A stretch of 23,354 nt of DNA. Source: a virus. Position numbers and translations under genes: made by a program. The stretch spans positions 1,064 through 24,417 of the IMG/VR virus record IMGVR_UViG_3300030102_006998, one strand, 5' to 3'. Numbering within the stretch: the first letter of the stretch is position 1; every line of letters starts with the position of its first letter. Positions 2,593 to 23,354 of this stretch are shown here, one piece after another. The notes beneath the pieces were generated by a model. The model did not search any database. It was not told where the DNA came from and saw nothing but the letters and a program-made list of their open reading frames with translations.

Positions 2593-3006
2593 CTATTTTA
2601 ACCAGCCGATTTTCTTGCCTTCTTTGATCCTTCGAGAATGTTCTTCAACTGTGCTAGGAAAACGCCATGCCCATACAGCCACCAGTGCCATAAACACACC
2701 TGACCATAACACTGCTTTCATATTGCCTGTGAAATACCAAGTGAATGCCAAGGTAGTGGACATCACAAATACCATTGCGTATTTGCCCTTTTGCGGAAAC
2801 ACTTTCTTCTGTGTCCAGTTTGTTAGGAATTTGCCAAACCATGGATGGTTGTATAACCAACGTTCCATCTTCTTGTTTGACTTTGCAAAACAATAAGCAG
2901 AGAACACAAGGAAAATACTGAATGGTATTCCTGGTGTAATGAAGCCTATGTATGCTATGGCTAAACTTATGAATCCTAAAGCCATAAAAATATATTTCTT
3001 AATCAT
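2593..3006 (-). CDS. DUF454 (YbaN-like) inner-membrane protein
   Basis: Encodes 137 residues with the DUF454 layout. An N-terminal hydrophobic pair (residues 5-37) carries the GxITPGIPFSIFLVFSAYCFAKS-type signature. A basic loop follows with WLYNHPWFGKFL, then two more hydrophobic segments (about 78-113) and a basic tail. The family is widespread in proteobacteria and of unknown biochemical role. The ATG overlaps the hemA stop by 8 bp, so it is translated together with ALAS. In some bacteria ybaN-type genes lie near haem or iron genes, but that link is only suggestive here. Confidence 0.85.
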   Translation of the reverse strand: MIKKYIFMALGFISLAIAYIGFITPGIPFSIFLVFSAYCFAKSNKKMERWLYNHPWFGKFLTNWTQKKVFPQKGKYAMVFVMSTTLAFTWYFTGNMKAVLWSGVFMALVAVWAWRFPSTVEEHSRRIKEGKKIGWLK

Positions 3007-4189
3007 GATATACCTCTGTTAATTTATCTGTTAGATCACTTATCATTGCGTCAGTGTGCATAGGTGTAGGAGCAAATCTCAGTCTCTCTGTGCCCTTTGC
3101 CACTGTTGGATAATTGATCGGTTGTACGTAGATGTCATGATCAAATAATAATGTGTCACTGATCTTCTTGCACTTGATAGGATCTCTGACCATAACTGGA
3201 ACCAAATGTGTTTCATTAGGATACACTTCAATATCGTTTTCTTTTAATAATGTTTTCAATTCCATTGCTTTTTCTTGATGTTGATTTCTTAAATCTCTTC
3301 CACCATCATCTTTTAGATACTTAACACTTGCCAATGCTCCTGCACAAATAACTGGCGGAATGCTGGTTGTGAATATAAAGCCGGGCGATATACTTCTTAT
3401 AGCATCTACAATTTCTTTGTCGCCTGCAATATATCCGCCATGCAATCCAACTGCTTTACTGAAACTGCCACTAACAATATCAACTCTGTCTTGCAAACCA
3501 ATTTTCTCTAACCAACCTGCTCCTGTGTGTCCGTAAAGTCCAACTGCATGAACTTCATCAATGTAAGTGATTGCTTTGTATTTGTCTGCTAAATCTAAAA
3601 TTTCTTTTATAGTTGCTACATCACCTTCCATGCTGTACACAGATTCAAATATCAAACAAGGTGTGCCTTTAACTGCTTTTAATTTTTCTTCTAGGTCTTC
3701 CATATTATTGTGTTTGAACAGATGCTTGGGTGCTTTACTTTTTAATATGCCTTGCACCAAGGACGCATGATTGTTATCATCACTTACGAATTCTATGTCA
3801 TCAATAATTTTTGTTAATGATATTAAGGTCCACTCATTGGCAACAAATGCCGATGTGTGTATGAGTGCTGATTCTTTTTTGTGCCATCTTGCAACTTCAG
3901 ATTCCAATGCCACGTGATAGTGTGTTGTACCAGATATATTTCTAGTTCCACCTGATCCAGCACCCGACTTGTCAAGAGCAGTGTGCATGGCATCAAGGAC
4001 AACTTTGTGTTGAGCCATACCTAAATAATCGTTGGCACACCAGTTGATAACATTTTTAATTCCGTATTTGCTGTACCATATGGTTCTAGGAAAGTTGCCT
4101 GCTTCACGAAGCACATCGTTGAACACACGATAGTTGCCTGCTTCTTTCAAGGCATCAGTAATTTTTACAAAAGGATCTTTGGATATCAT
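2999..4189 (-). CDS. hemA: 5-aminolevulinate synthase
   Basis: Encodes 396 residues, normal length for the family. ALAS condenses glycine and succinyl-CoA to 5-aminolevulinate, the first step of the alphaproteobacterial (C4) haem pathway, using pyridoxal phosphate in the cytosol. Visible signatures: WCANDYLGMAQ (50-60), SGAGSGGTRNISGTTHYH (75-92), DEVHAVGLYG with D211 and H214 contacting the cofactor, SGSFSKAVG with K245 as the PLP lysine, and the C-terminal INYPTVAKGTERLRFAPTP. Most ALAS enzymes have GTLGKAFG at the lysine; GSFSKAVG is a small departure also seen in other alpha-oxoamine synthases, but the rest is ALAS-specific. A TAAATAC box lies 4 nt before the ATG, without a Shine-Dalgarno. 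It forms an operon with the DUF454 gene. No other haem genes are in the window. Confidence 0.95.
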   Translation of the reverse strand: MISKDPFVKITDALKEAGNYRVFNDVLREAGNFPRTIWYSKYGIKNVINWCANDYLGMAQHKVVLDAMHTALDKSGAGSGGTRNISGTTHYHVALESEVARWHKKESALIHTSAFVANEWTLISLTKIIDDIEFVSDDNNHASLVQGILKSKAPKHLFKHNNMEDLEEKLKAVKGTPCLIFESVYSMEGDVATIKEILDLADKYKAITYIDEVHAVGLYGHTGAGWLEKIGLQDRVDIVSGSFSKAVGLHGGYIAGDKEIVDAIRSISPGFIFTTSIPPVICAGALASVKYLKDDGGRDLRNQHQEKAMELKTLLKENDIEVYPNETHLVPVMVRDPIKCKKISDTLLFDHDIYVQPINYPTVAKGTERLRFAPTPMHTDAMISDLTDKLTEVYHD

Positions 4190-5242: not shown

Positions 5243-5249
5243 GTATTTA
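5243..5249 (-). promoter_or_regulatory. TATAAATAC box with downstream Shine-Dalgarno
   Basis: Minus strand ATATAAATAC overlapping the speD stop codon, a full match to the T4 late-promoter consensus TATAAATA. Unlike most boxes here it is followed by a 34-nt leader and a GGAGG (around 5213-5218) before the ATG at 5208. Confidence 0.5.
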
Positions 5250-5624
5250 TATGGTAAGTTCTGTGAAACCTTTTTCTCTGTCTAGGTACTTGTATTCTAC
5301 TTTAATAGGCTTTAGTTCTTGCATAATATCTAAGACACTTTGTGGCTTGAATGGTCCACAAGTGTACACATCAAGTTGTACAAGAGCAGGATTAACTTCG
5401 TCCCATATGTGCATGGCAATATGACTGGTTTCAATAATTGCAAATGCTGTGACTCCTCTGTTGCCTTTCATTTTGCAGTATGACGCTGTAGGTCCGTACA
5501 TTGCTTTCATATCAATCGATTTTATTATACGATTTAAGAATTTGATTGCTTTATTTCTTCGTGTGATAGGCTCAGAAACTTCTGCTCTAATAATAATGTG
5601 TTTGTGTTCTAGTACTTTTGTCAT
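5247..5624 (-). CDS. speD: S-adenosylmethionine decarboxylase family pyruvoyl enzyme
   Basis: Encodes 125 residues, the size of the prokaryotic class-1b proenzyme. The precursor self-cleaves before a serine that becomes the pyruvoyl group. Here the motif is IETSHIAMHIWDE (64-76), giving S67 as pyruvoyl serine and H72 as processing histidine. C89 in DVYTCG matches the proton-donor cysteine. Classical enzymes have ESH before the cleavage point; here the preceding residue is Thr (ETSH), a pattern I associate with phage and SAR11-like homologues. AdoMet decarboxylase supplies aminopropyl groups for spermidine, but some phage and bacterial SpeD homologues are known to have become ornithine or arginine decarboxylases, so the substrate is uncertain. 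No spermidine synthase is in the window. A TAAATAG box lies 4 nt before the ATG. Confidence 0.85.
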   Translation of the reverse strand: MTKVLEHKHIIIRAEVSEPITRRNKAIKFLNRIIKSIDMKAMYGPTASYCKMKGNRGVTAFAIIETSHIAMHIWDEVNPALVQLDVYTCGPFKPQSVLDIMQELKPIKVEYKYLDREKGFTELTI

Positions 5625-8535: not shown

Positions 8536-8574
8536 ATAGTATTATTGAACTTGCTTAAACAGGAGGACAAGAGA

Positions 8575-10485
8575 ATGAGTAAAATAATAGGAATAGACTT
8601 AGGTACTACCAATAGTTGTGTAGCACTTATGCAAGGCTCAAAAGCCACAGTAATAGAAAATACAGAAGGTGCGAGAACCACTCCAAGTGTGGTTGCTTAT
8701 AGTGATTCAGAAATACTAGTAGGTGCACCTGCAAAACGTCAGGCAGTCAGCAACGCAAAGAATACAATTTTTGCGGCAAAGAGATTGATTGGTAGAACGT
8801 TTGAAGGAGACTCTGTACAAAAAGATATCAAAACACTACCTTACGAAATTGTTAAATCAGATAAAGGAGATGCTTGGGTAAAAGCCAATGGCAAAAATTA
8901 TTCACCATCAGAAATATCTGCGAACGTTTTACGTAAGATGAAAGAAACAGCAGAGAAATATTTGGGTCAAGAGGTTAAGAAGGCAGTGATCACTGTTCCG
9001 GCTTACTTCAATGATAGCCAACGTAAGGCTACAAAGGACGCAGGTAAAATTGCTGGACTCGAAGTTGAAAGAATTATAAATGAACCAACAGCGGCGGCAT
9101 TGGCATATGGACTTGATAAGAAAAAGTCAGGTTTGGTTGCTGTGTATGACCTAGGTGGTGGAACATTTGACGTTTCAATTTTAGAATTAGGTGACGGTGT
9201 GTTTGAAGTTAAGTCCACAAATGGTGATACATCACTGGGTGGTGAAGACTTTGATGCACAATTAACAGATTACATTGTTAAAGAATTTAAGAAAGACAAT
9301 GGAATAGATTTGGCAAATGATAATTTAGCAGTACAACGTGTTAGAGAGGCGGCTGAAAAAGCCAAGATAGAATTGTCTAGCACAATGGAGACTGACATTA
9401 ATCTGCCATTTATAACAGCAGACAAAACAGGACCTAAACACATCAACATGAAATTATCAAGAAGCAAATTGGAAATGCTGGTTGGTGACTTCATAGCAAA
9501 AACATTATCTCCTTGCAAACAGGCATTGAAAGATGCTGGAGTAAGTGCAAGTGATATCAGTGAAGTTGTGTTGGTAGGTGGTATGACACGTATGCCAAAA
9601 GTACAGGAAACTGTCAAAGAGTTCTTTGGCAAGGAACCACACAAAGGAGTTAACCCAGATGAAGTGGTTGCTCTTGGTGCCGCAATACAAGGTGGAGTAC
9701 TACAAGGTGATGTCAAAGATGTGTTGCTGTTAGATGTAACACCATTATCACTAGGTATTGAAACACTAGGCGGAGTGACAACCAAATTGATTGAGAAGAA
9801 CACAACAATTCCTACAAAGAAAAGTCAGGTGTTCTCAACAGCAGAAGACAATCAAGCGGCTGTGACTATAAGAGTAACGCAGGGTGAAAGGGAAATGGCG
9901 TCTGATAACAAGATGTTAGGCACATTTAACCTAGAAGGAATAGCACCTGCTCCTAGAGGAGTACCACAAATAGAAGTAACTTTTGATATTGATGCAAATG
10001 GTATTGTGAGTGTGAGTGCAAAAGACAAAGGCACTGGCAAAGAACAGAAGATCACAATCCAGGCAGACGGCGGATTATCAGAAGAGGATATCGACAAGAT
10101 GGTTAAAGAAGCAGAAGCCAACAAAGAAGCAGACAAGAAGAAAAGAGAATTGGTAGATGCTAAAAACCAAGCAGAAACTTTAACACATCAAATAGAAAAG
10201 CAGTTGAAAGAACACGGCGATAAGATATCTGCAGAAGAAAAGAAGGCAATTGAAGATGCCAAAACTGATGTAACTGAAGCAATTAAGTCAGATGATGCAG
10301 AGAAAATAAAAACAGCAGTGGCTAAATTGACTGAAGTGTCTATGAAACTTGGTGAAGCAGTTTACAAACAGGCTCAGCAAGAACAAAAACCTGCTGAAGA
10401 GTCAAGCGACAGCAAGGATGAAAAAGTTGTAGACGCAGAGTTTGAAGAAGTGAAAAAAGACAAACCAGAAGACAAAAAAGAATAA
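8575..10485 (+). CDS. dnaK: molecular chaperone DnaK (Hsp70)
   Basis: Encodes 636 residues, close to the usual 638. ATP-driven chaperone of the cytosol. The start is the ATG before [14 protein letters not shown], fixed by AGGAGG 8 nt upstream; an in-frame ATG at 8545 lacks support. Nucleotide-binding domain (about 1-385) shows [39 protein letters not shown] and [11 protein letters not shown]. Then the linker [16 protein letters not shown], the substrate-binding beta domain, the helical lid and a C-terminus of the usual VVDAEFEEV type. All key motifs are intact. dnaJ and grpE are absent from the flanks; both neighbours are small uncharacterised genes. Confidence 0.98.
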
Positions 10486-15044: not shown

Positions 15045-15119
15045 TGGCGGTCCCACGGGGAATCGAACCCCGCTTTCATGGATGAAAACCATGTGTCCTA
15101 ACCGATAGACGATGGGACC
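15045..15119 (-). tRNA. tRNA-Glu(TTC)
   Basis: Acceptor GGTCCCA/TGGGACC, anticodon stem CATGG/CCATG around TTTTCAT (anticodon TTC), normal T-loop TTCGATT, G73 and encoded CCA. Its first base is the last base of the petB stop codon TAG. Confidence 0.95.
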
Positions 15120-16387
15120 TAATCTTCTTTTTTAACAGGAAGTTTGTTCGCGGTGTGTATAGAGTCTGGGATAGCCAAAGGTTTTTCAGTCCAGCCTACC
15201 ACAGGTGCAATGACTAGGAAAAACAAGAACCAATATGCTGTTCCTATTCTACCTAGCAGAATGAATATACCTTCTGCTGGCATGGCTCCTACATACATCA
15301 ATAAGAAAAAGTCTGCCACAAGTATCCAAACAAATTGTTTCCAAATAGGTCTGAACACTGATGATCTTATCTTAGATGTATCTAACCAAGGCAGTAAACC
15401 AATTACTCCTATTGCTGATACCATTGCAATTACTCCACCTAACTTATCAGGTATTGCTCTTAAAATTGCATACCAAGGTAAGAAATACCATTCAGGTACA
15501 ATGTGTGCAGGAGTAACCAAAGGGTTGGCTTCTATATAATTGTCTGGATGTCCTAGATAGTTAGGCAAGTAAAATAAAAATCCAAAAAACAATATAATGA
15601 AAACTAAAAATGCCCAAAGGTCTTTTATTGTTATGTAAGGATGAAACGATACTGTGTCTCTTGTGTCCTTAGGCTCAACGCCCATAGGATTGTTTGATCC
15701 TGTCATGTGCAGTGCTATCACGTGAAACACCACAACACCTACAATCAAAAACGCAATCAACCAGTGCAATACAAATGCTCTATTTAAGAAAGCATCACCT
15801 ACAGAATAATCTCCCCAAAGTGCAGTTACAATCATGTCACCCACAAAAGGAATTGCCGAGAACAAACTGGTTATCACAGTTGCTCCCCAATAACTCATCT
15901 GTCCCCAAGGTAAAACATAACCTAGGAAAGCAGTTGCCATCATAAGGAAATAAATTATCACTCCTATGATCCACATCAGTTGCCGAGGGTCTTTGTATGA
16001 ACCAAAGTATAGTCCCCTAAACATATGTAGGTACACAGCAATAAAAAAGAATGATGCCAAGTTCATGTGCAGATACCTAAACAGCCAACCGTAGTTGACA
16101 TCTCTCATGATGTGTTCAACACTAGAGAATGCTTCGTTCACACTAGGTTTGTAATGCATACCAAGTACAAGTCCTGTTATGATTAGTCCCAGCAAACAAA
16201 ATGTAAGTATCGCTCCAAAACTCCACCAATAGTTCAAGTTCTTAGGCACTTGGAAATCCAAGTATTCCATCTTGAACATTCTAAATATTGGCAGTCTGTT
16301 GTCCAGCCAACCTAACACTCCTTTGAATGGAGATTTGTTTTCGCCGACTTTATTCGTATTAACTGGTTTATAGTTTTTGTCTTCCAT
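15119..16387 (-). CDS. petB: cytochrome b of the bc1 complex
   Basis: Encodes 422 residues, normal for alphaproteobacterial cytochrome b. This inner-membrane subunit carries both b haems and the quinone sites of complex III. The haem ligands are visible as two pairs spaced by 13 residues: H107/H121 in [18 protein letters not shown] and H208/H222 in [16 protein letters not shown]. The Qo-site PEWY (298-301) is present, followed by the ALR...DKxGG block. About eight hydrophobic spans are seen. The usual partners, Rieske protein and cytochrome c1, are missing from both sides; instead petB lies between tRNA genes. It has its own promoter, TTGACT-17-TATAAT, yet could also be read through from rnpB. 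The stop codon TAG overlaps tRNA-Glu by one base. Confidence 0.97.
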
Positions 16388-16457: not shown

Positions 16458-16533
16458 TGGCGGTCCTTACGGGACTCGAACCCGTGATCTTCCGCGTGAC
16501 AGGCGGACGTGTTAACCACTACACCAAAGGACC
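16458..16533 (-). tRNA. tRNA-Asp(GTC)
   Basis: Acceptor GGTCCTT/AAGGACC, anticodon stem TCCGC/GCGGA around CTGTCAC (anticodon GTC), T-loop TTCGAGT, G73 and encoded CCA. One base separates it from tRNA-Gln. Confidence 0.95.
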
Positions 16534-16534
16534 T

Positions 16535-16608
16535 TGGCTGGCCCTCAAGGACTCGAACCTCAAATAACGGTACCAAAAACCGTTGTGATACCATTTCACC
16601 AAGGGCCA
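16535..16608 (-). tRNA. tRNA-Gln(TTG)
   Basis: Acceptor TGGCCCT/AGGGCCA, the U1-A72 start typical of tRNA-Gln, anticodon stem ACGGT/ACCGT around TTTTGGT (anticodon TTG), T-loop TTCGAGT, G73 and encoded CCA. It begins about 4 nt after the RNase P RNA. Confidence 0.95.
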
Positions 16609-16612
16609 ACAT

Positions 16613-16768
16613 TTTCAGTCCGTAAGCAGGATTCTGTTCTATGACATCATTTATCTTTGCGTTCTACCCTGAGTCATGGTTGAGCATAAAGACTCTCTAT
16701 TTGAACTCGCACTCTCAACAGTGTCCTGACTTTCCTCAGATATAAATCTGCGATGTCTCGACTGAATC
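16613..16768 (-). ncRNA. rnpB: RNase P RNA, strongly shortened (about 156 nt)
   Basis: RNase P removes 5' leaders from tRNAs. Diagnostic elements read 5' to 3': P1 TTCAGTC pairing with the terminal GACTGAA; P2 GACATC with GATGTC; P3 hairpin CAGAT-TTAT-ATCTG; GAGGAAAGTCAGGA as the 5' P4 strand and universal CR-I; ACAGAATCCTGCTTA as CR-V and the 3' P4 strand. P4 forms with the conserved bulged U (AAG-U-CAGGA with TCCTG-CTT). Only about 80 nt lie between the 5' P4 strand and the 3' P2 strand, against some 280 in E. coli, so the specificity domain and most P7-P18 elements are missing; GTTGAG/CTCAAC may form one remaining helix. A TTGACA-17-TACAAT promoter lies just upstream. Ends are set by P1 and are accurate to a few bases. 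Confidence 0.9.
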
Positions 16769-16771
16769 CTT

Positions 16772-16800
16772 ATTGTACAATAAAATTTTTGAAATGTCAA
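16772..16800 (-). promoter_or_regulatory. sigma70 promoter of rnpB and tRNA operon
   Basis: Minus strand TTGACA (16795-16800), 17 bp, TACAAT (16772-16777). The expected start falls at about 16766-16769, at the first base of P1, which supports the RNA 5' end. Confidence 0.8.
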
Positions 16801-16876: not shown

Positions 16877-16907
16877 TAGAAGCAATTAGCGGGGGCAAGT
16901 GCGACAC

Positions 16908-19900
16908 ATGAACATTCTCAATACGAGTGAACAAACACAAATCACATTAGACGGATCTACTCTAATCCATGGCAAGTACTCTGTGCAGGGCCAGGATTTG
17001 TTAATCACCACGGAGTTTGATTCAGTGTTGCTCAAAGACTACTTTGAACACTTGCCAACTCTTGTATCACCGCAAGGTTCAAAACTTACCCCCAAGTTAG
17101 TGTCCCTGCTATCTGCCTACCAACCCAATGACTACCTAGGCTTTGAAGATCCACAAGCCATAGGTGAGATCACACTGACAGGTGGACCAATCACAGTGAC
17201 CAGAGCAGGTCAACAGATTGAACTGAATGTAGGTGACTTCATCTATCTCAATGACTTGGTTGAGGTTGGAGAATACAATGTGGGTATCACATTTAAGGAC
17301 GACACAGCACTTTCATTGGAGTCTGGTGCAAGAATGATCATAGATGATTTTGTGTATGATCCAGACACACCCACAGAAGGTTCAATGAATGCCAACGTGT
17401 TGGGTGGCGGATTTTCTTTTGTGTCAGGTAATGTTGCCAAGGTTGGTGCCGATGCAATGACTGTGACCACTCCTGTTTTAACAATAGGTGTCAGAGGAAC
17501 GCAGGTGGCTGGAAGAGCCAATCAAGATGGTGAAGACAATGAAATAATTCTATTACCAAACGAGGATGGCACTGTGGGACAAATCATGGTGTCAAATGAT
17601 TCAGGTTCTGTGTTGTTGACAGAAGCATTCCAAGGCACAACAATTACCAGTGCTGTGGAGGCTCCATCAATTCCGGTGATCATACCTGAAGATATTGTGT
17701 TGAAAAAGTTTGCTAAAACAATTGCCACAAACAAAACTACATTGAAAACATCTAAGAAAAACAAACAGTCCAAAGAGGCTGAAAAAGAGAAACAGAAATT
17801 AGAAAAAGAAAAAGAAGAATTGGAACAAGAAAAGGAACAACTTGAAGAAGAGGCTGAACAACTTGAAGAAGAAAAAGCAGAGTTAGAAGAGAAACTGGCT
17901 GACGAAGATATCACTGAAGAAGAAAAAGCAGAGTTAGAAGAAGAACTTGCCGCTGTTGAAGAAAAGGCTGTGGCTGTGGAAGAAAAAGTTGAACAGGTTG
18001 TGGAACAAGCAGAAGAGGTTGAACAAAAGTTTGAAAAGGTTGAACAACAGATTCAAGAGATAGAACAAGAATTTGAACAGTTCTTTGAAGAGATCAAAGA
18101 AGAATTTGGCGAAGAAGTTGTGGCAGATGTTGAACAGGCAGTGGCAGAAGCCGAAAAAGTGTTTGAAGAAAAAATACAAGAAGAAGTTGCCAAAGAAGTA
18201 GAAGCAGAGATCAAAGAAGAAGAAACTATTGAAGATCCATTTGAGGAAGCACCAGAAGAAGAAATGGAAAAAGAAATGGAACAAAAAATGGAAGAAGAAA
18301 TTCTACTGTTGGAGGAAGAGCCACCTGTTGAAGAAATGCCTGTGGAAGAAGATATATTTGAAGAAAAAATGGAAGAGGAAGTCAACCAGATAGAAGAAGA
18401 ATTTGCTCCTGAGAATTTCGAAGAAGAACCAATGTTGGTGGAAGATAATGTGTTTGAAGATGCACAGAAAGATGAACCCAAGATTGAAGAAGAAAAAATT
18501 GAAGAAGTTAAAGTGGAAGATTTCAATCAGCCTATGATGAATGACGAAGTGTTCCAAGAAGAATTTGTAGCATTCTTTGAGCCTGATGCTAATGAAAACG
18601 AAGACACAAATGATTTTAATTTCCCGCCCATCATAAATTTAGAAACCAACGAAGAAGAGGATATTGAAGTAATTGAAGCAGAAACAGATGCTCCTATGTT
18701 GATCTTGAACTCAGCACCAACAATTGATTCTATTAGCAATGTGTCCAAGTCTGAGAATTTGAGTGTGGGATCAACGATTGCCACAGCATCGGCATCAGAT
18801 GCAGATGGTGATTCAATCACATACAGTTTGACAGTGGATCAAACCGGCAAACTATCTATTGATCAAAATGGTGTGATCACATTAGCAAGTGCATTTGAAG
18901 AACACTCATCAGATGTAGACTACAATGTGACAGTGAGAGCGTCTGATGGCACAGATGATGCCAAGATAAATTTTGTGTTGACTGTGACAGATGACGGAAC
19001 AATATTGACCAAAGCAGTAGGCACCGGAACCTTGAAAACAGAATGGGGTGACAATTACAGCAAAGACATGACAATGAACAACGCATGGTCTCAGCAAGAT
19101 GTATTGGTGTTTGGAGAGTTCAACTCGGGTACTAGACAGGATGTGATAGACGTGCTGGAAGACAACTACGGTACAGGTTGGAGTTTCAATGTGACCGACG
19201 GTGGTAATCACTGGGGCAGATTGGACACATACACCAACGCAGAACTATCCAAATACATGATGATTATAGATGTTACAGTGGACAACAGATGGGGTCCTGG
19301 TTCGGACCAAACTGGTGACAGCACTAACTTTAATAAAACCATAACCAACGGTGACAACACAGCCATCAAGGATTATCTCAGCATGGGTGGTGTGTTGTTG
19401 ATGCACGGTGAAAATATGCATTGGGACAACGGAGCCAACAGCACCCTACAGACATTGATCAGAGAATTGGACAGCGATGTGGATCAGACCAATCAGATAT
19501 ACGGTGGAGGCGGAAGCGGTGGTTCTCATCAACGAGGTACCAACGGAGAGTATGTGGACTTTTCGAATGCCAGTAGTGCATATAGTTTAAGCAGTATATC
19601 AGGATATCCACCAGCACCGGGAAAATTTGTAGACTCAAGATTGGGTGACGGTAATCTCATAGCAGGTAACGTGTTGGCGGAATGGGGAGGTGATGCTTTG
19701 AACACAGGTTACGAAGGAACATTCATAGCCTACCTGGACGGAAACTACATGATGGATAGTTACAACGGTTCGGGCCACACTACCAACGGCGGCACTCATT
19801 ACGGTCAACACTCGGCTGACCTATACCAGTTCATGAAAAATGAGGCCTACAATTCCTCATACGCCAATGGCAGGATTACCATAGATGAAGAATACCTTCC

Positions 19901-20441
19901 GAAATTTAAAACATCATACGGCGGAACAGATTACGTAGCACAAAACAATTACACCAAAGTGGATGCATATCACCTAGGCGACAATGTGTACATCGGCGGT
20001 GGTATGGATCACATCGACTTTGTGTGGGACGACTCGGCAGACACAGCCTACTGGGCATTCAACACAGACATGGACACTTCCGCAGACGTGAATGGTATAG
20101 ATGATCACTATGGAGTGATAGGATACGATGCAGACGGCGATGGAGACTTATGGGAAACGACAGACACGTTCAATCTGGACAAGATCAAGATCCTGGATGA
20201 CTCTGTGGACTACCTGGCACAGGATCCTGATGCCACAGGAGATTACTATTTAAAAATAACACCGGTCACATATGATAGTAACAGTTGGACTGTGGAGACC
20301 AGCAACACAGTCACAGTCACCAACACCACTGACTACAATGCATATCTTGACCTCAGTGCCAACACAGCATTTGATAACATCAACTATGCCCTGATTGAAA
20401 CAGAATCAGCACTGATATCAGAAGTAGTGATTAGTACGTAA
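16908..20441 (+). CDS. giant FecR-domain, Glu-rich, cadherin-like secreted protein
   Basis: Encodes 1,177 residues from the ATG at 16908 (an in-frame GTG at 16899 is possible). Layout: N-terminal region (1-85); FecR-like domain (about 88-210; GGPITVTRAGQQIELNVGD, then TPVLTIGVRGTQVAG) as seen at the start of many large type I-secreted proteins; Glu-rich coiled-coil region (about 285-590); one cadherin-like domain (about 615-705; DADGDSITYSLTVD). The long C-terminal part (705-1177) has VLVFGEFNSGTR, YMMIIDVTV and YLSMGGVLLMHGE, which together suggest a Rossmann-like or ThuA/amidotransferase-like fold, plus a calcium-loop-like DADGDGD. There are no RTX nonapeptides and no Sec signal. It is followed by TolC and an ABC membrane domain, so it is probably the substrate of that exporter. 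Confidence 0.85.
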   Translation: MNILNTSEQTQITLDGSTLIHGKYSVQGQDLLITTEFDSVLLKDYFEHLPTLVSPQGSKLTPKLVSLLSAYQPNDYLGFEDPQAIGEITLTGGPITVTRAGQQIELNVGDFIYLNDLVEVGEYNVGITFKDDTALSLESGARMIIDDFVYDPDTPTEGSMNANVLGGGFSFVSGNVAKVGADAMTVTTPVLTIGVRGTQVAGRANQDGEDNEIILLPNEDGTVGQIMVSNDSGSVLLTEAFQGTTITSAVEAPSIPVIIPEDIVLKKFAKTIATNKTTLKTSKKNKQSKEAEKEKQKLEKEKEELEQEKEQLEEEAEQLEEEKAELEEKLADEDITEEEKAELEEELAAVEEKAVAVEEKVEQVVEQAEEVEQKFEKVEQQIQEIEQEFEQFFEEIKEEFGEEVVADVEQAVAEAEKVFEEKIQEEVAKEVEAEIKEEETIEDPFEEAPEEEMEKEMEQKMEEEILLLEEEPPVEEMPVEEDIFEEKMEEEVNQIEEEFAPENFEEEPMLVEDNVFEDAQKDEPKIEEEKIEEVKVEDFNQPMMNDEVFQEEFVAFFEPDANENEDTNDFNFPPIINLETNEEEDIEVIEAETDAPMLILNSAPTIDSISNVSKSENLSVGSTIATASASDADGDSITYSLTVDQTGKLSIDQNGVITLASAFEEHSSDVDYNVTVRASDGTDDAKINFVLTVTDDGTILTKAVGTGTLKTEWGDNYSKDMTMNNAWSQQDVLVFGEFNSGTRQDVIDVLEDNYGTGWSFNVTDGGNHWGRLDTYTNAELSKYMMIIDVTVDNRWGPGSDQTGDSTNFNKTITNGDNTAIKDYLSMGGVLLMHGENMHWDNGANSTLQTLIRELDSDVDQTNQIYGGGGSGGSHQRGTNGEYVDFSNASSAYSLSSISGYPPAPGKFVDSRLGDGNLIAGNVLAEWGGDALNTGYEGTFIAYLDGNYMMDSYNGSGHTTNGGTHYGQHSADLYQFMKNEAYNSSYANGRITIDEEYLPKFKTSYGGTDYVAQNNYTKVDAYHLGDNVYIGGGMDHIDFVWDDSADTAYWAFNTDMDTSADVNGIDDHYGVIGYDADGDGDLWETTDTFNLDKIKILDDSVDYLAQDPDATGDYYLKITPVTYDSNSWTVETSNTVTVTNTTDYNAYLDLSANTAFDNINYALIETESALISEVVIST
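17770..18660 (+). repeat. GAA-rich low-complexity tract coding a Glu-rich coiled coil
   Basis: About 890 bp dominated by GAA and GAG codons. It includes a direct repeat encoding EEEKAELEE near 17865 and 17916, 51 bp apart. The tract gives long false open frames on the opposite strand. Confidence 0.7.
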
Positions 20442-20444
20442 TGA

Positions 20445-20451
20445 TAAATAT
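20445..20451 (+). promoter_or_regulatory. TAAATAT box, 9 nt before ATG
   Basis: GATAAATAT-GAGTATATT-ATG in the 19-bp gap before the TolC-type gene. Confidence 0.45.
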
Positions 20452-20460
20452 GAGTATATT

Positions 20461-21984
20461 ATGAATAAATTTTTAATAACCACAGCATTAACCACAATAC
20501 TACTAGGTTGTGGCACTGTTTCGTTGGGTGCTGAAAAAGACTTAAAGTGTAGCATCATAGAAGAAACAGACACATACATTCAAAAAAATTGTGTGAGCAA
20601 GAACGGCAAGGTTATCAGTGCCTCCATTGAGAGCAAACCAATGCCGGGCATCACCATTGTGAAAAGTGATGAAGGCACTCCACAGGTAAAAGTGAATGTG
20701 GAAAAATTTGTTGATGAAACAGCACTGCCAGAAGCACCAATCATTCAGGTCAAGGACGGTGAGATACTGCCACTTGATGTGATGTTACCAAAACTAATTG
20801 CAGAGTCAGACAGAGTGCAGGCGGCAAAAGAGAATTTCAAAGCCAGTGTGGAAGATCTAAAAAGTGCCAAGTCCATGTATCATCCCAATGTTAGTATCAC
20901 ATACGGACACAATGAAGAAAGCGACAGAACACCATCACAGAGCAGTGGTGCAGAATCCATTTCCAACACCAACAAGTCAGGCACAAAAGCATCAATCACG
21001 TTGACTCAATTGATATGGGACGGTGGTAGAACAGACACAGCAGTGGATATTGCAAAACGTAATTCACAAAAAGCACAGATCAATCTTGAACTTACAATAG
21101 AAGATGTGATTGTGGAAGGTGTCACGGTGTACATCAACATGATTAAGAACTACAACACATACCAAGCCAATTTGAAAATAGAAGACAATGCCAAGAAGGC
21201 ATTGGCAATGACCATTGAAAAGGTCAAAAAGGGTGAAGCATCCAAAATGGAACAGTTGCAGATTGAACAGCAGTTCAGAACTTATGAATCAATCACAACA
21301 CAGAGCAAGATACAATATGAAATTGCCAAAGAAAATTTTGTAAAAGTTTGGGGATTCAATCCACCTGAAGCAGATAAGTTTCCTATGCCCAATGAAGATT
21401 TATTAGGCAAGTTGCCAAACAATCCTAAGAACTACAACGGCAACAAGAGTTTGAGAATGGCAGACTACGACAAAGTGATAGCACGTCTAACCACAAAAAA
21501 CATGAAGAACGAATTCAAACCCACAATAGATTCAACTGTAAGTTACACAGACTATCAAAATGATCTAGGTGGCGGTTATGGATCTACCAAATCAGAATGG
21601 CGTTTCGATGTCACAATGCGTTGGACTCTGTTCAATGGTTGGAAGAACACTTCAGACTACAAGGCGGCTAAACACAGAGAACAAGCCATGGAGTTGACCT
21701 ACAAAGATACAGCAAAAAACATCAACAATCAAGTTAAGAGTTTATGGACTAATTTCAAAAACATGAAGAAAAACTTAAAGACTCTTGAAAGAAGCAACAA
21801 GATCAACAAAGAGATGTACGCATTAACTTTACAAGATTTCAAAGCAGGTAATTCTCCACTATTGGCTGTGTTCTCAATGAAGACAGCAGAAATCAACAGC
21901 GAAGTGGCTGTGAAGAATGCCAAGTTAGATCTATTGCTACAAAGATACAATATCCACAAATTGATTGGTTCAATCAACCAATAA
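20461..21984 (+). CDS. TolC-family outer-membrane efflux protein
   Basis: Encodes 507 residues. The N-terminal signal contains ILLGC (C17), which may be a lipobox, or cleavage may follow SLGA (24). An extra N-terminal domain (about 25-115) precedes the two TolC repeats. The first has NVSITYGH, then LTQLIWDGGRTDTAV and long helices ending at VWGFNPPEA. The second has PTIDSTVSYTDYQND, RWTLFNGWKNTSDY and helices ending near LLQRYNIHKLIG. OMF trimers form the outer-membrane channel and periplasmic tunnel of type I exporters. Placed between the giant FecR protein and an ABC membrane domain, it is very likely their channel. No membrane-fusion (HlyD) gene is in the window. Confidence 0.9.
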   Translation: MNKFLITTALTTILLGCGTVSLGAEKDLKCSIIEETDTYIQKNCVSKNGKVISASIESKPMPGITIVKSDEGTPQVKVNVEKFVDETALPEAPIIQVKDGEILPLDVMLPKLIAESDRVQAAKENFKASVEDLKSAKSMYHPNVSITYGHNEESDRTPSQSSGAESISNTNKSGTKASITLTQLIWDGGRTDTAVDIAKRNSQKAQINLELTIEDVIVEGVTVYINMIKNYNTYQANLKIEDNAKKALAMTIEKVKKGEASKMEQLQIEQQFRTYESITTQSKIQYEIAKENFVKVWGFNPPEADKFPMPNEDLLGKLPNNPKNYNGNKSLRMADYDKVIARLTTKNMKNEFKPTIDSTVSYTDYQNDLGGGYGSTKSEWRFDVTMRWTLFNGWKNTSDYKAAKHREQAMELTYKDTAKNINNQVKSLWTNFKNMKKNLKTLERSNKINKEMYALTLQDFKAGNSPLLAVFSMKTAEINSEVAVKNAKLDLLLQRYNIHKLIGSINQ

Positions 21985-21989
21985 TCAGT

Positions 21990-21996
21990 TAAATAC
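21990..21996 (+). promoter_or_regulatory. TAAATAC box, 7 nt before ATG
   Basis: GTTAAATAC-ACACATA-ATG between the TolC-type gene and the ABC membrane domain. No Shine-Dalgarno. Confidence 0.5.
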
Positions 21997-22003
21997 ACAC
22001 ATA

Positions 22004-22732
22004 ATGAAACAGTTTTTTAAGAGCCTATTCTCACAACCACGAACAGCCACTCTGTTGTTGATCAGCAGTTTACTGATTACCGTTTTGGCTCTAGTGCCAG
22101 CATTTTACGTAATCCTAGTATTGAACAAATTTTTATCAAGTGGAGTCATCAGTACATTGGTCACACTTACACTAGGGGCGATACTTTGCATCTTGTTTGA
22201 ATATGTGTTTAGACAGAACAGACAAAATCTACTGTCTTCTTTTTTGTACAAACAGTCACACAAACTTTTATTAGCAATGAAAGAAAAAGTACAACAAGAA
22301 AAACAAATGCCTATGGAAGTCAGTAAAAGTTTACAAACAATTGATATGACCAACAAGAGCAGTATAATTTCGGGTGTGCTGGACGCACCATTTCAATTGG
22401 TATTCTTTGCCATTATATTCTCTATGTCTTGGCAGATAGGTTTGTTGATTGTAGGATTTGTGTTGATTGCATGGATACTGAATCAATATCGCACAGTGTT
22501 TAATTTTAAAGAATATACTAACACACACCTTGACATGACTTTGACTAGTCTTCTCACAGTTGCTATAATTTCATTAGGTGCAGTATTGACATTGAATGGT
22601 CAATTGACTGTTGGCAGTTTGATAGGTTTAAACATTCTGAGTGCTAGAACTTTCATGACCATTAACAAATATTTTAAAGTAAAACCATTATTGTTAAACG
22701 ATTTTAAGTCTTGGCTTGATGTACTTGTTTGA
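22004..22732 (+). pseudogene. type I secretion ABC exporter, membrane domain only, truncated
   Basis: Encodes 242 residues from the ATG at 22004. Residues 15-45 and 50-66 form the first hairpin; DAPFQLVFFAIIFSMSWQIGLLIVGFVLI is the typical third/fourth helix region of PrtD/LapB-type exporters; GQLTVGSLIGLNILSARTFM matches the conserved end of the fifth helix. The cytosolic helices between spans four and five are much shorter than usual, and the whole ATPase domain (Walker A, signature, Walker B) is missing. Family-like sequence stops near residue 225, where the frame runs antisense to the tail-fibre gene. The gene is therefore probably cut at about 22675. If genuine, it would need an ATPase supplied by another gene. 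Confidence 0.7.
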
Positions 22733-22983
22733 ACAGTATTTTGATTTGGCATTAGGTTTAATGCACGACCATTTTCAGTATTAAACCAATGATGGTTACC
22801 TGTTGAAGTCCTGTGTTTTATCCAAACAGAACCACCCTCACCGCTTAAATCTAAACCATTATTAATACTTAATTCAGAACCTGTGCCATTGTACACATGA
22901 GTGCTATAAACATCGTCTACATCTAAAGTTGCACCTGAACCTTGATTTCCAGACTGACCCATTATCATTTTACTAAGTGACAT
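22600..22983 (-). pseudogene. phage tail-fibre-like protein, C-terminus lost
   Basis: Encodes 127 residues as read. Residues 1-102 look like a marine-phage structural protein: VYNGTGSELSINNGLDLSGE, VWIKHRTSTGNHHWFNTENG and a LKSFNNNGFTL block, as in DUF7483-type tail-fibre modules. Beyond about residue 103 the frame is the antisense of the ABC exporter gene and has no family character, so the true C-terminus (normally ending in a VAWTFR-like motif) is missing. It starts on the stop of the upstream gene (TAATG). Confidence 0.6.
22668..22682. other. probable junction between exporter gene and tail-fibre gene
   Basis: Family-like sequence of the exporter (plus strand) ends, and that of the tail-fibre gene (minus strand) ends, within the same A/T-rich 15 bp. 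Two convergent genes are cut at one point, as expected for a recombination breakpoint or an assembly chimera. Confidence 0.55.
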
Positions 22984-23354
22984 TATGCTACTCCTGTTAA
23001 AGCTTTTTTACCGAAGTATGTAGTGCCACCATCTACTGTTATAAATGTGTACAAATCTGTTGCTCCTGATGCTGTATTAGCAGGAGCACTACCACCTTGC
23101 CACTTTATTGAGTCAGGCCATGTAATTGCATAGTCTCCTGAAGTTGTTACCTCTAAAGCAAAAGAGTAGGCTTTTCCTGAAGCAGGAGGATTTGAAAAAG
23201 AAAATGTAGTAGCACCAGATAAAGATAAAGTAAAATAACTTCCTTGACTAAGATCTGCAGTTGCTGATTGAGTTGATATAAAAAGAAAAGCATCTAAATT
23301 ACCCACACTTGTACCTGTTCTATTTTCAAACCAAGTCCAAGTAGGGCTGCTAGG
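22983..23354 (-). CDS. phage tail-fibre or structural protein, 5' end beyond the edge
   Basis: At least 123 residues; the frame stays open to the right edge, and the GTG at 23306 is only an internal codon. The segment begins PSSPTWTWFENRTG, followed by a beta-rich region: QGSYFTLSLSGATTFSFSNPPASG, ALEVTTSGDYAITWPDSIKW and YTFITVDGGTTYFGKKALTGVA. This last pattern is typical of marine T4-like and pelagiphage tail-fibre proteins, which often end in GG..Y.G....G.A. It overlaps the next gene by one base. Confidence 0.75.
   Translation of the reverse strand, partial: PSSPTWTWFENRTGTSVGNLDAFLFISTQSATADLSQGSYFTLSLSGATTFSFSNPPASGKAYSFALEVTTSGDYAITWPDSIKWQGGSAPANTASGATDLYTFITVDGGTTYFGKKALTGVA

Follow-up and report, generated by a model that had tools for sequence, protein, structure and literature searches.

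The gene for RNase P RNA is regarded as one that cells cannot do without, and the full-length bacterial RNA is about 350-450 nt long. The stretch of DNA analysed here (23,354 nucleotides, referred to as the window, from an IMG/VR entry of 24,417 bases) contains on its minus strand a candidate RNase P RNA of about 155 nt. It is the place of occurrence together with the small size that gives a phage RNase P RNA its high interest. We asked whether this RNA is real and complete, what kind of genome carries it, and what it might do there.

Identity and anatomy of the window RNA

The first-pass annotation had read a minimal RNase P RNA at this locus and named an Infernal search as a check. Using cmscan with Rfam, we found a match to the bacterial class A model RF00010 on the minus strand at 16767-16607 (70.4 bits, E 8.8e-20), and class A was the best-scoring family of the Rfam clan. 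The score lies below the curated RF00010 gathering cut-off of 100 bits because the S-domain is absent and half of the model thus has no counterpart. The alignment runs over the whole of model positions 1-367 and leaves two large gaps, one for the S-domain (model positions ~66-218) and one for P18 (24 nt). A genome search with RF00010 gave no match in the window record, an effect of its initial filter, as cmscan and model R1 (below) both match the RNA. The feature at 16613-16767 (-) is accordingly a C-domain-only class A RNase P RNA; it also matches our covariance model R1 (E 5.4e-44), which was trained on seven sequences including the window RNA, so that this is a match to the model's own training sequence. 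A pattern for CR-I and CR-V occurs once in the window and in none of 100 shuffled versions. Minimum free energy folding gave a non-significant z of -0.62; for an RNA with two pseudoknots, formed by the core helices themselves, this is to be expected. The identity as an RNase P RNA is based on homology and covariation.

The RNA is closed by P1, where the 5' strand TTCAGTC (16760-16766) pairs with GACTGAA (16614-16620), and P2 is formed by GACATC (16752-16757) with GATGTC (16643-16648). A shortened P3 hairpin, CAGAT/ATCTG, follows at 16737-16750, and CR-I with the 5' strand of P4 occupies 16724-16737. In P4 (AAG-U-CAGGA/TCCTG-CTT), positions 16732-16724 pair with 16631-16624 and U16729 is bulged; the 3' strand lies with CR-V, ACAGAATCCTGCTTA, at 16623-16637, which was placed by the RF00010 alignment and a pattern scan. 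The same alignment supports P3, CR-I, P5, the P15-P17 arm and J18/2. Reading of the sequence also gives P5 as CACT/AGTG (16710-16723; 16723-16720 with 16713-16710), closing a 6-nt loop that stands in for the entire S-domain. The 5' strand of P6, GTTGAG (16714-16719), forms a pseudoknot with CTCAAC (16679-16684). The P15-P16-P17 arm (16661-16706) carries CAAATAG and an L15 sequence, GGGTA, containing the GGU motif that binds the 3' RCCA of tRNA. J18/2 is AGATAAATG (16648-16656), with P18 reduced to nothing. All of these elements are on the minus strand.

Thus, the window RNA keeps P1-P6, P15-P17, CR-I, CR-V, the L15 GGU motif and J18/2, and it lacks P7-P14 and P18. The P4 helix of CR-I and CR-V with its bulged U, the closing P1 and the P2/P4 pseudoknot are those of the RNase P RNA superfamily. 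The P6 pseudoknot between the loop side of P5 and L17 and the P15-P17 arm with the L15 GGU are those of class A, from whose S-domain CR-II/CR-III and P7-P12 are missing. The first-pass annotation had listed P1-P4, the bulged U, CR-I and CR-V, all of which are present. It had also taken everything from P7 to P18 to be reduced along with the S-domain; this part needs correction, since P6 and P15-P17 are retained and the loss is confined to P7-P14 and P18.

Covariation among homologues from related contigs, another check that had been proposed, is present in seven RNAs. Six further C-domain-only RNAs came from a motif search across 2.9 million viral contigs. Across the seven, 91.7% of the paired cells hold a base pair compared with 32-37% in slid controls, and 34 cells show changes on both sides compared with 13.0 +/- 2.3 in shuffles. 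On a manual alignment we counted covarying pairs in P1 (7/7), P2 (3/6), P3 (3/5), P6 (4/5), P15 (2/4) and P16 (2/5); the computed pair-cell count gave four P1 pairs changed on both sides. P6 had to be counted on the manual alignment because MAFFT shifts it by one column between groups. It is GUUGAG/CUCAAC in the window and GGUAG/CUACC, GGCAG/CUGCC or GGUGG/CCACC in the relatives. P4 is invariant, as are CR-I and the other catalytic-core and CCA-binding motifs, in all seven phages. These compensatory base changes support the predicted helices P1, P2, P3, P6, P15 and P16.

The RNA resembles the catalytic domain of bacterial class A RNase P RNA in all the elements that it keeps and in their order; it differs in its length, in the missing S-domain and P18, in being phage-encoded and in lying within a tRNA operon. 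Fungal mitochondria, the first-pass comparison, make a poorer parallel than two other cases. Type T RNA of Pyrobaculum and other Thermoproteaceae shares the natural loss of P18 and of most of the S-domain. Type T is an archaeal RNA that works with archaeal proteins, however, whereas the window RNA fits the bacterial class A model best, has a sigma-70-type promoter and is not of thermoproteacean origin. The other likeness is to an engineered E. coli C-domain RNA, Eco CP RPRdelP18, from which the S-domain and P18 were removed and in which a P6-type contact is important (PMC5839562). That laboratory construct still cleaves; the E. coli C-domain RNA relies on a P6 mimic or P6-like contact, and P18 is dispensable in E. 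coli RNase P RNA once the S-domain has been removed (PMC5839562). In contrast to the construct, the phage RNA is natural and has a shorter P3 and a longer P6 (5-6 pairs). The reduced forms known so far are type T of the Thermoproteaceae and the diverged CPR RNAs without P12 (PMC7191817, PMC8172020). As natural C-domain-only ribozymes of bacterial type, the phage RNAs would be material for studies of structure and evolution, among them the proposal that the C-domain arose first.

A predicted promoter-led tRNA operon on phage DNA

Upstream of P1 there is a -35 box, TTGACA (16795-16800), separated by a 17-bp spacer from a -10 box, TACAAT (16772-16777), that ends 4 nt before P1; the two boxes match at 11 of 12 positions. 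Promoters of this kind precede all seven C-domain-only RNAs, with a spacer of exactly 17 bp and 4-10 nt before P1. Their scores are 10-12 of 12, a range (>=10) reached by about 2% of random 60-mers. The first-pass view of a real, untruncated, minimal RNA with its own promoter is upheld.

Downstream on the same strand, tRNA-Gln(TTG), with its CCA encoded (16535-16608), starts 5 nt after P1, and tRNA-Asp(GTC) (16458-16533) starts 1 nt after tRNA-Gln. In being sited among tRNA/tmRNA genes the RNA resembles a member of the translation RNA sets of phages. A full gene for a bc1-type cytochrome b (15119-16387 (-)) lies within the operon and is adjoined by tRNA-Glu (15045-15119). In two related loci (L006 and L007) tRNA-Asp is directly followed by tRNA-Cys with nothing between, which makes cytochrome b and tRNA-Glu look inserted. 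Among phage records this cytochrome b had a single match, located at one end of a Helicobacter phage record.

The window DNA is that of a large marine bacterial virus, a phage rather than a bacterial chromosome. It contains the phage families phrog_81 (oxygenases), phrog_452 (nuclease) and phrog_22485 (DnaK), and at 22600-23306 there are tail-fibre families. The record itself, which is 24 kb long, has no capsid gene. The full DnaK gene (8545-10485 (+)) encodes a protein 77% identical to DnaK in two related contigs of 328 and 242 kb and 87% identical to DnaK in L006 and L007. The 328- and 242-kb contigs encode a T4-type major capsid protein gp23 (E 6e-97 and 3e-80) and a large terminase. Cell-like genes are also present in the window, namely cytochrome b, an ALAS-like aminotransferase (2999-4189 (-)), DnaK and TolC; there is an S-adenosylmethionine decarboxylase gene at 5247-5624 (-). 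Since the contig comes from a large phage, its RNase P RNA is an extra one in a host that presumably has its own. The window RNase P RNA is real, complete and phage-encoded.

Two other loci with a phage RNase P RNA contain an alphaproteobacterial-type permuted tmRNA with the tag ADENLALAA (L004:10573-10892 and L005:2675-2992), about 1.3-1.6 kb upstream of the RNase P RNA. This tmRNA type hints at an alphaproteobacterial host for such phages. The RNase P RNA of Pelagibacter, a possible relative of the host, is of the ordinary class A kind (PMC2704228). At 16899-22732 (+) the window also has a secretion-like module, in which an 1180-aa FecR/cadherin-like protein with a long coiled coil is followed by an outer membrane protein resembling TolC and by a fragment resembling an ABC transporter.

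RNase P RNAs in other phages

Scans that allowed longer gaps raised the number of short RNase P RNA candidates to 118, which fall into 78 k-mer clusters and comprise the window RNA, one from the isolate DLP_6, one from a MAG contig and 115 IMG/VR loci. Model R1 independently matched about 86 of the other loci at E <= 0.01. Among 115 phage-type RNAs with enough flank, 45 have a same-strand tRNA that begins 14-24 nt after CR-V, directly after P1. Several jumbo-phage copies, including L024, L034, L044 and that of a 735-kb phage, have no tRNA nearby. Capsid and terminase matches were found in 11 of 25 large records and a tail sheath in one more; the viral status of the remainder depends on how IMG/VR classifies them. 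Similar RNase P RNAs that had escaped annotation are present in many other giant phages.

One of these is a 249-nt RNA in Stenotrophomonas phage DLP_6 (KU682439.2:105774-106022; L001:2802-3050). Like the window RNA it is an unannotated, phage-encoded class A core directly before a tRNA (tRNA-Arg, 3 nt away), but it is longer and has a small hairpin domain at the S-domain position. A piece of its CR-V was the only match when the window RNA was compared with phage records by blastn; blastn with L003, L009 and L089 as queries gave no matches. We located two further unannotated RNAs by blastn and read them by eye, in LR756501 (735,411 bases; L119 ~1990-2215) and LR756511 (595 kb; L120 ~1870-2090). 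Neither was detected by Rfam at E 1e-4, and of the two huge phages R1 matches only LR756511 (E 5e-7). RNase P goes unmentioned in the paper on huge phages that reported a genome of 735 kb (PMC7162821). A full-text literature search, in which subscription papers and preprints were thinly covered so that an earlier description is possible, found no report of a phage-encoded RNase P RNA.

The longer phage-type RNAs (more than 100; L010-L118) mostly lack the canonical CR-II/CR-III motifs. A GGAG/GAAG box occurs in 72 of 110 of them at the position of the S-domain, and in many cases it belongs to a helix that also has a variable hairpin and CGUU. This region (for example L043:2115-2309 (-)) is possibly a phage-specific mini S-domain.

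A survey of 84,980 species genomes of bacteria and archaea for the short core gave one true case. This RNA (L009:3931-4107 (-)) lacks the S-domain, has P18 and a weak P1, and lies among tRNAs on an Elusimicrobia MAG contig whose genes look bacterial; the same MAG holds a full-length RNase P RNA. Two pattern matches were discarded, L008, which lies within a full-length Saprospiraceae rnpB, and L121, a chance match within an open reading frame.

On balance we favour the view that huge phages, that of 735 kb included, have unrecognised RNase P ribozymes of their own which have radiated into very diverse forms, from C-domain-only to mini-S-domain, which borrow the host protein and which in many cases may cut themselves from a tRNA array. 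If so, viruses would join the known distribution of RNase P RNA, with forms down to 155 nt.

Protein partner, proposed role and alternatives

The first-pass annotation had suggested a protein-rich RNase P or a relaxed tRNA substrate range. Neither is supported for an extra RNA on a large-phage contig. We found no rnpA (PF00825) in 26 related records, some of which may be incomplete, while 10 control bacteria matched; HARP (PF08745) gave only sub-threshold matches in the phage records. A full-length rnpB elsewhere in the genome, which would have undermined the original reading, was sought in the phage records and none was found. RF00010 and R1 detected one short RNA in each whole phage record and no second RNase P RNA, apart from two marginal fragments (E ~0.16). 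Because rnpA is missing from the 26 records, host C5 (RnpA) is the likely protein partner, and the window RNA is probably functional with this host protein.

We consider it likely that the window RNA is the leader gene of a host-transcribed tRNA operon and that, with host C5, it cuts the 5' leaders of pre-tRNAs and matures its own transcript. Its own sigma-70-type promoter would be used by host RNA polymerase, giving an operon transcript that starts with the RNase P RNA and runs on into tRNA-Gln, tRNA-Asp and probably more tRNAs. The C-domain would fold round P4, with the extended P6 pseudoknot as a brace where the S-domain has been lost, and would most likely bind host C5. The pre-tRNA would be gripped by its acceptor stem and by pairing of its 3' RCCA with the L15 GGU, and its 5' leader cut. 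A cut at the start of tRNA-Gln would free the 3' end of the ribozyme as well, and cleavage at tRNA-Asp would complete the 3' side of tRNA-Gln, so that one activity could mature the whole transcript. We infer pre-tRNA cleavage with host C5 from the anatomy, which is that of the active engineered E. coli C-domain RNA. With C5 and a model hairpin substrate, the E. coli RNA without its S-domain works about 100-fold more slowly than the full-length RNA (18 versus 2161; PMC5839562), and the phage RNA might therefore be weak or specialised.

A small RNA that binds host C5 or pre-tRNAs could instead act as a decoy in host takeover, lowering or redirecting host RNase P without cleaving. The P2-P4 and J18/2 core, the site of C5 binding, is kept while the S-domain is lost, and the phage provides no protein subunit, all of which would fit a decoy. 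We regard this as unlikely, since a decoy could dispense with an invariant P4 and its bulged U, with the CR-V residues and the L15 GGU, and with a site at the 5' ends of tRNAs as seen in many phages. Action in cis only, on the adjoining tRNA-Gln and on no tRNAs in trans, would suit the 5-nt gap to that tRNA, the similar spacing at the 45 loci and the large cost in trans efficiency that removal of the S-domain has for the E. coli RNA (PMC5839562); the jumbo-phage copies with no tRNA nearby make it very unlikely.

The cell-like genes of the window could be taken to mean that the contig is misclassed as viral and that a reduced-genome bacterium has this RNA as its only, normal RNase P RNA. This reading, to which we give very little weight, is already contradicted: the closest homologues of the window are in jumbo phages with capsid and terminase, and the one true S-domain-less RNA in the survey of species genomes sits beside a full-length one. 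The missing S-domain and P18 would suit a host rnpB that had been captured along with neighbouring tRNAs and is now in decay. That is the least credible account, being contradicted by covariation, as the same outline with compensatory changes recurs in two divergent phage groups, with the promoter intact at a similar distance and a tRNA adjacent.

For the proposed ribozyme acting with host C5, the gain would be that phage tRNA processing is sustained when the host supply is limiting. If this is true, some phages bring with them tRNAs, tmRNA and the core of the enzyme that matures them, and the need of a phage for its own tRNA processing as the host supply collapses becomes testable. Stenotrophomonas phage DLP_6 is a cultured, experimentally accessible carrier of an RNase P RNA.
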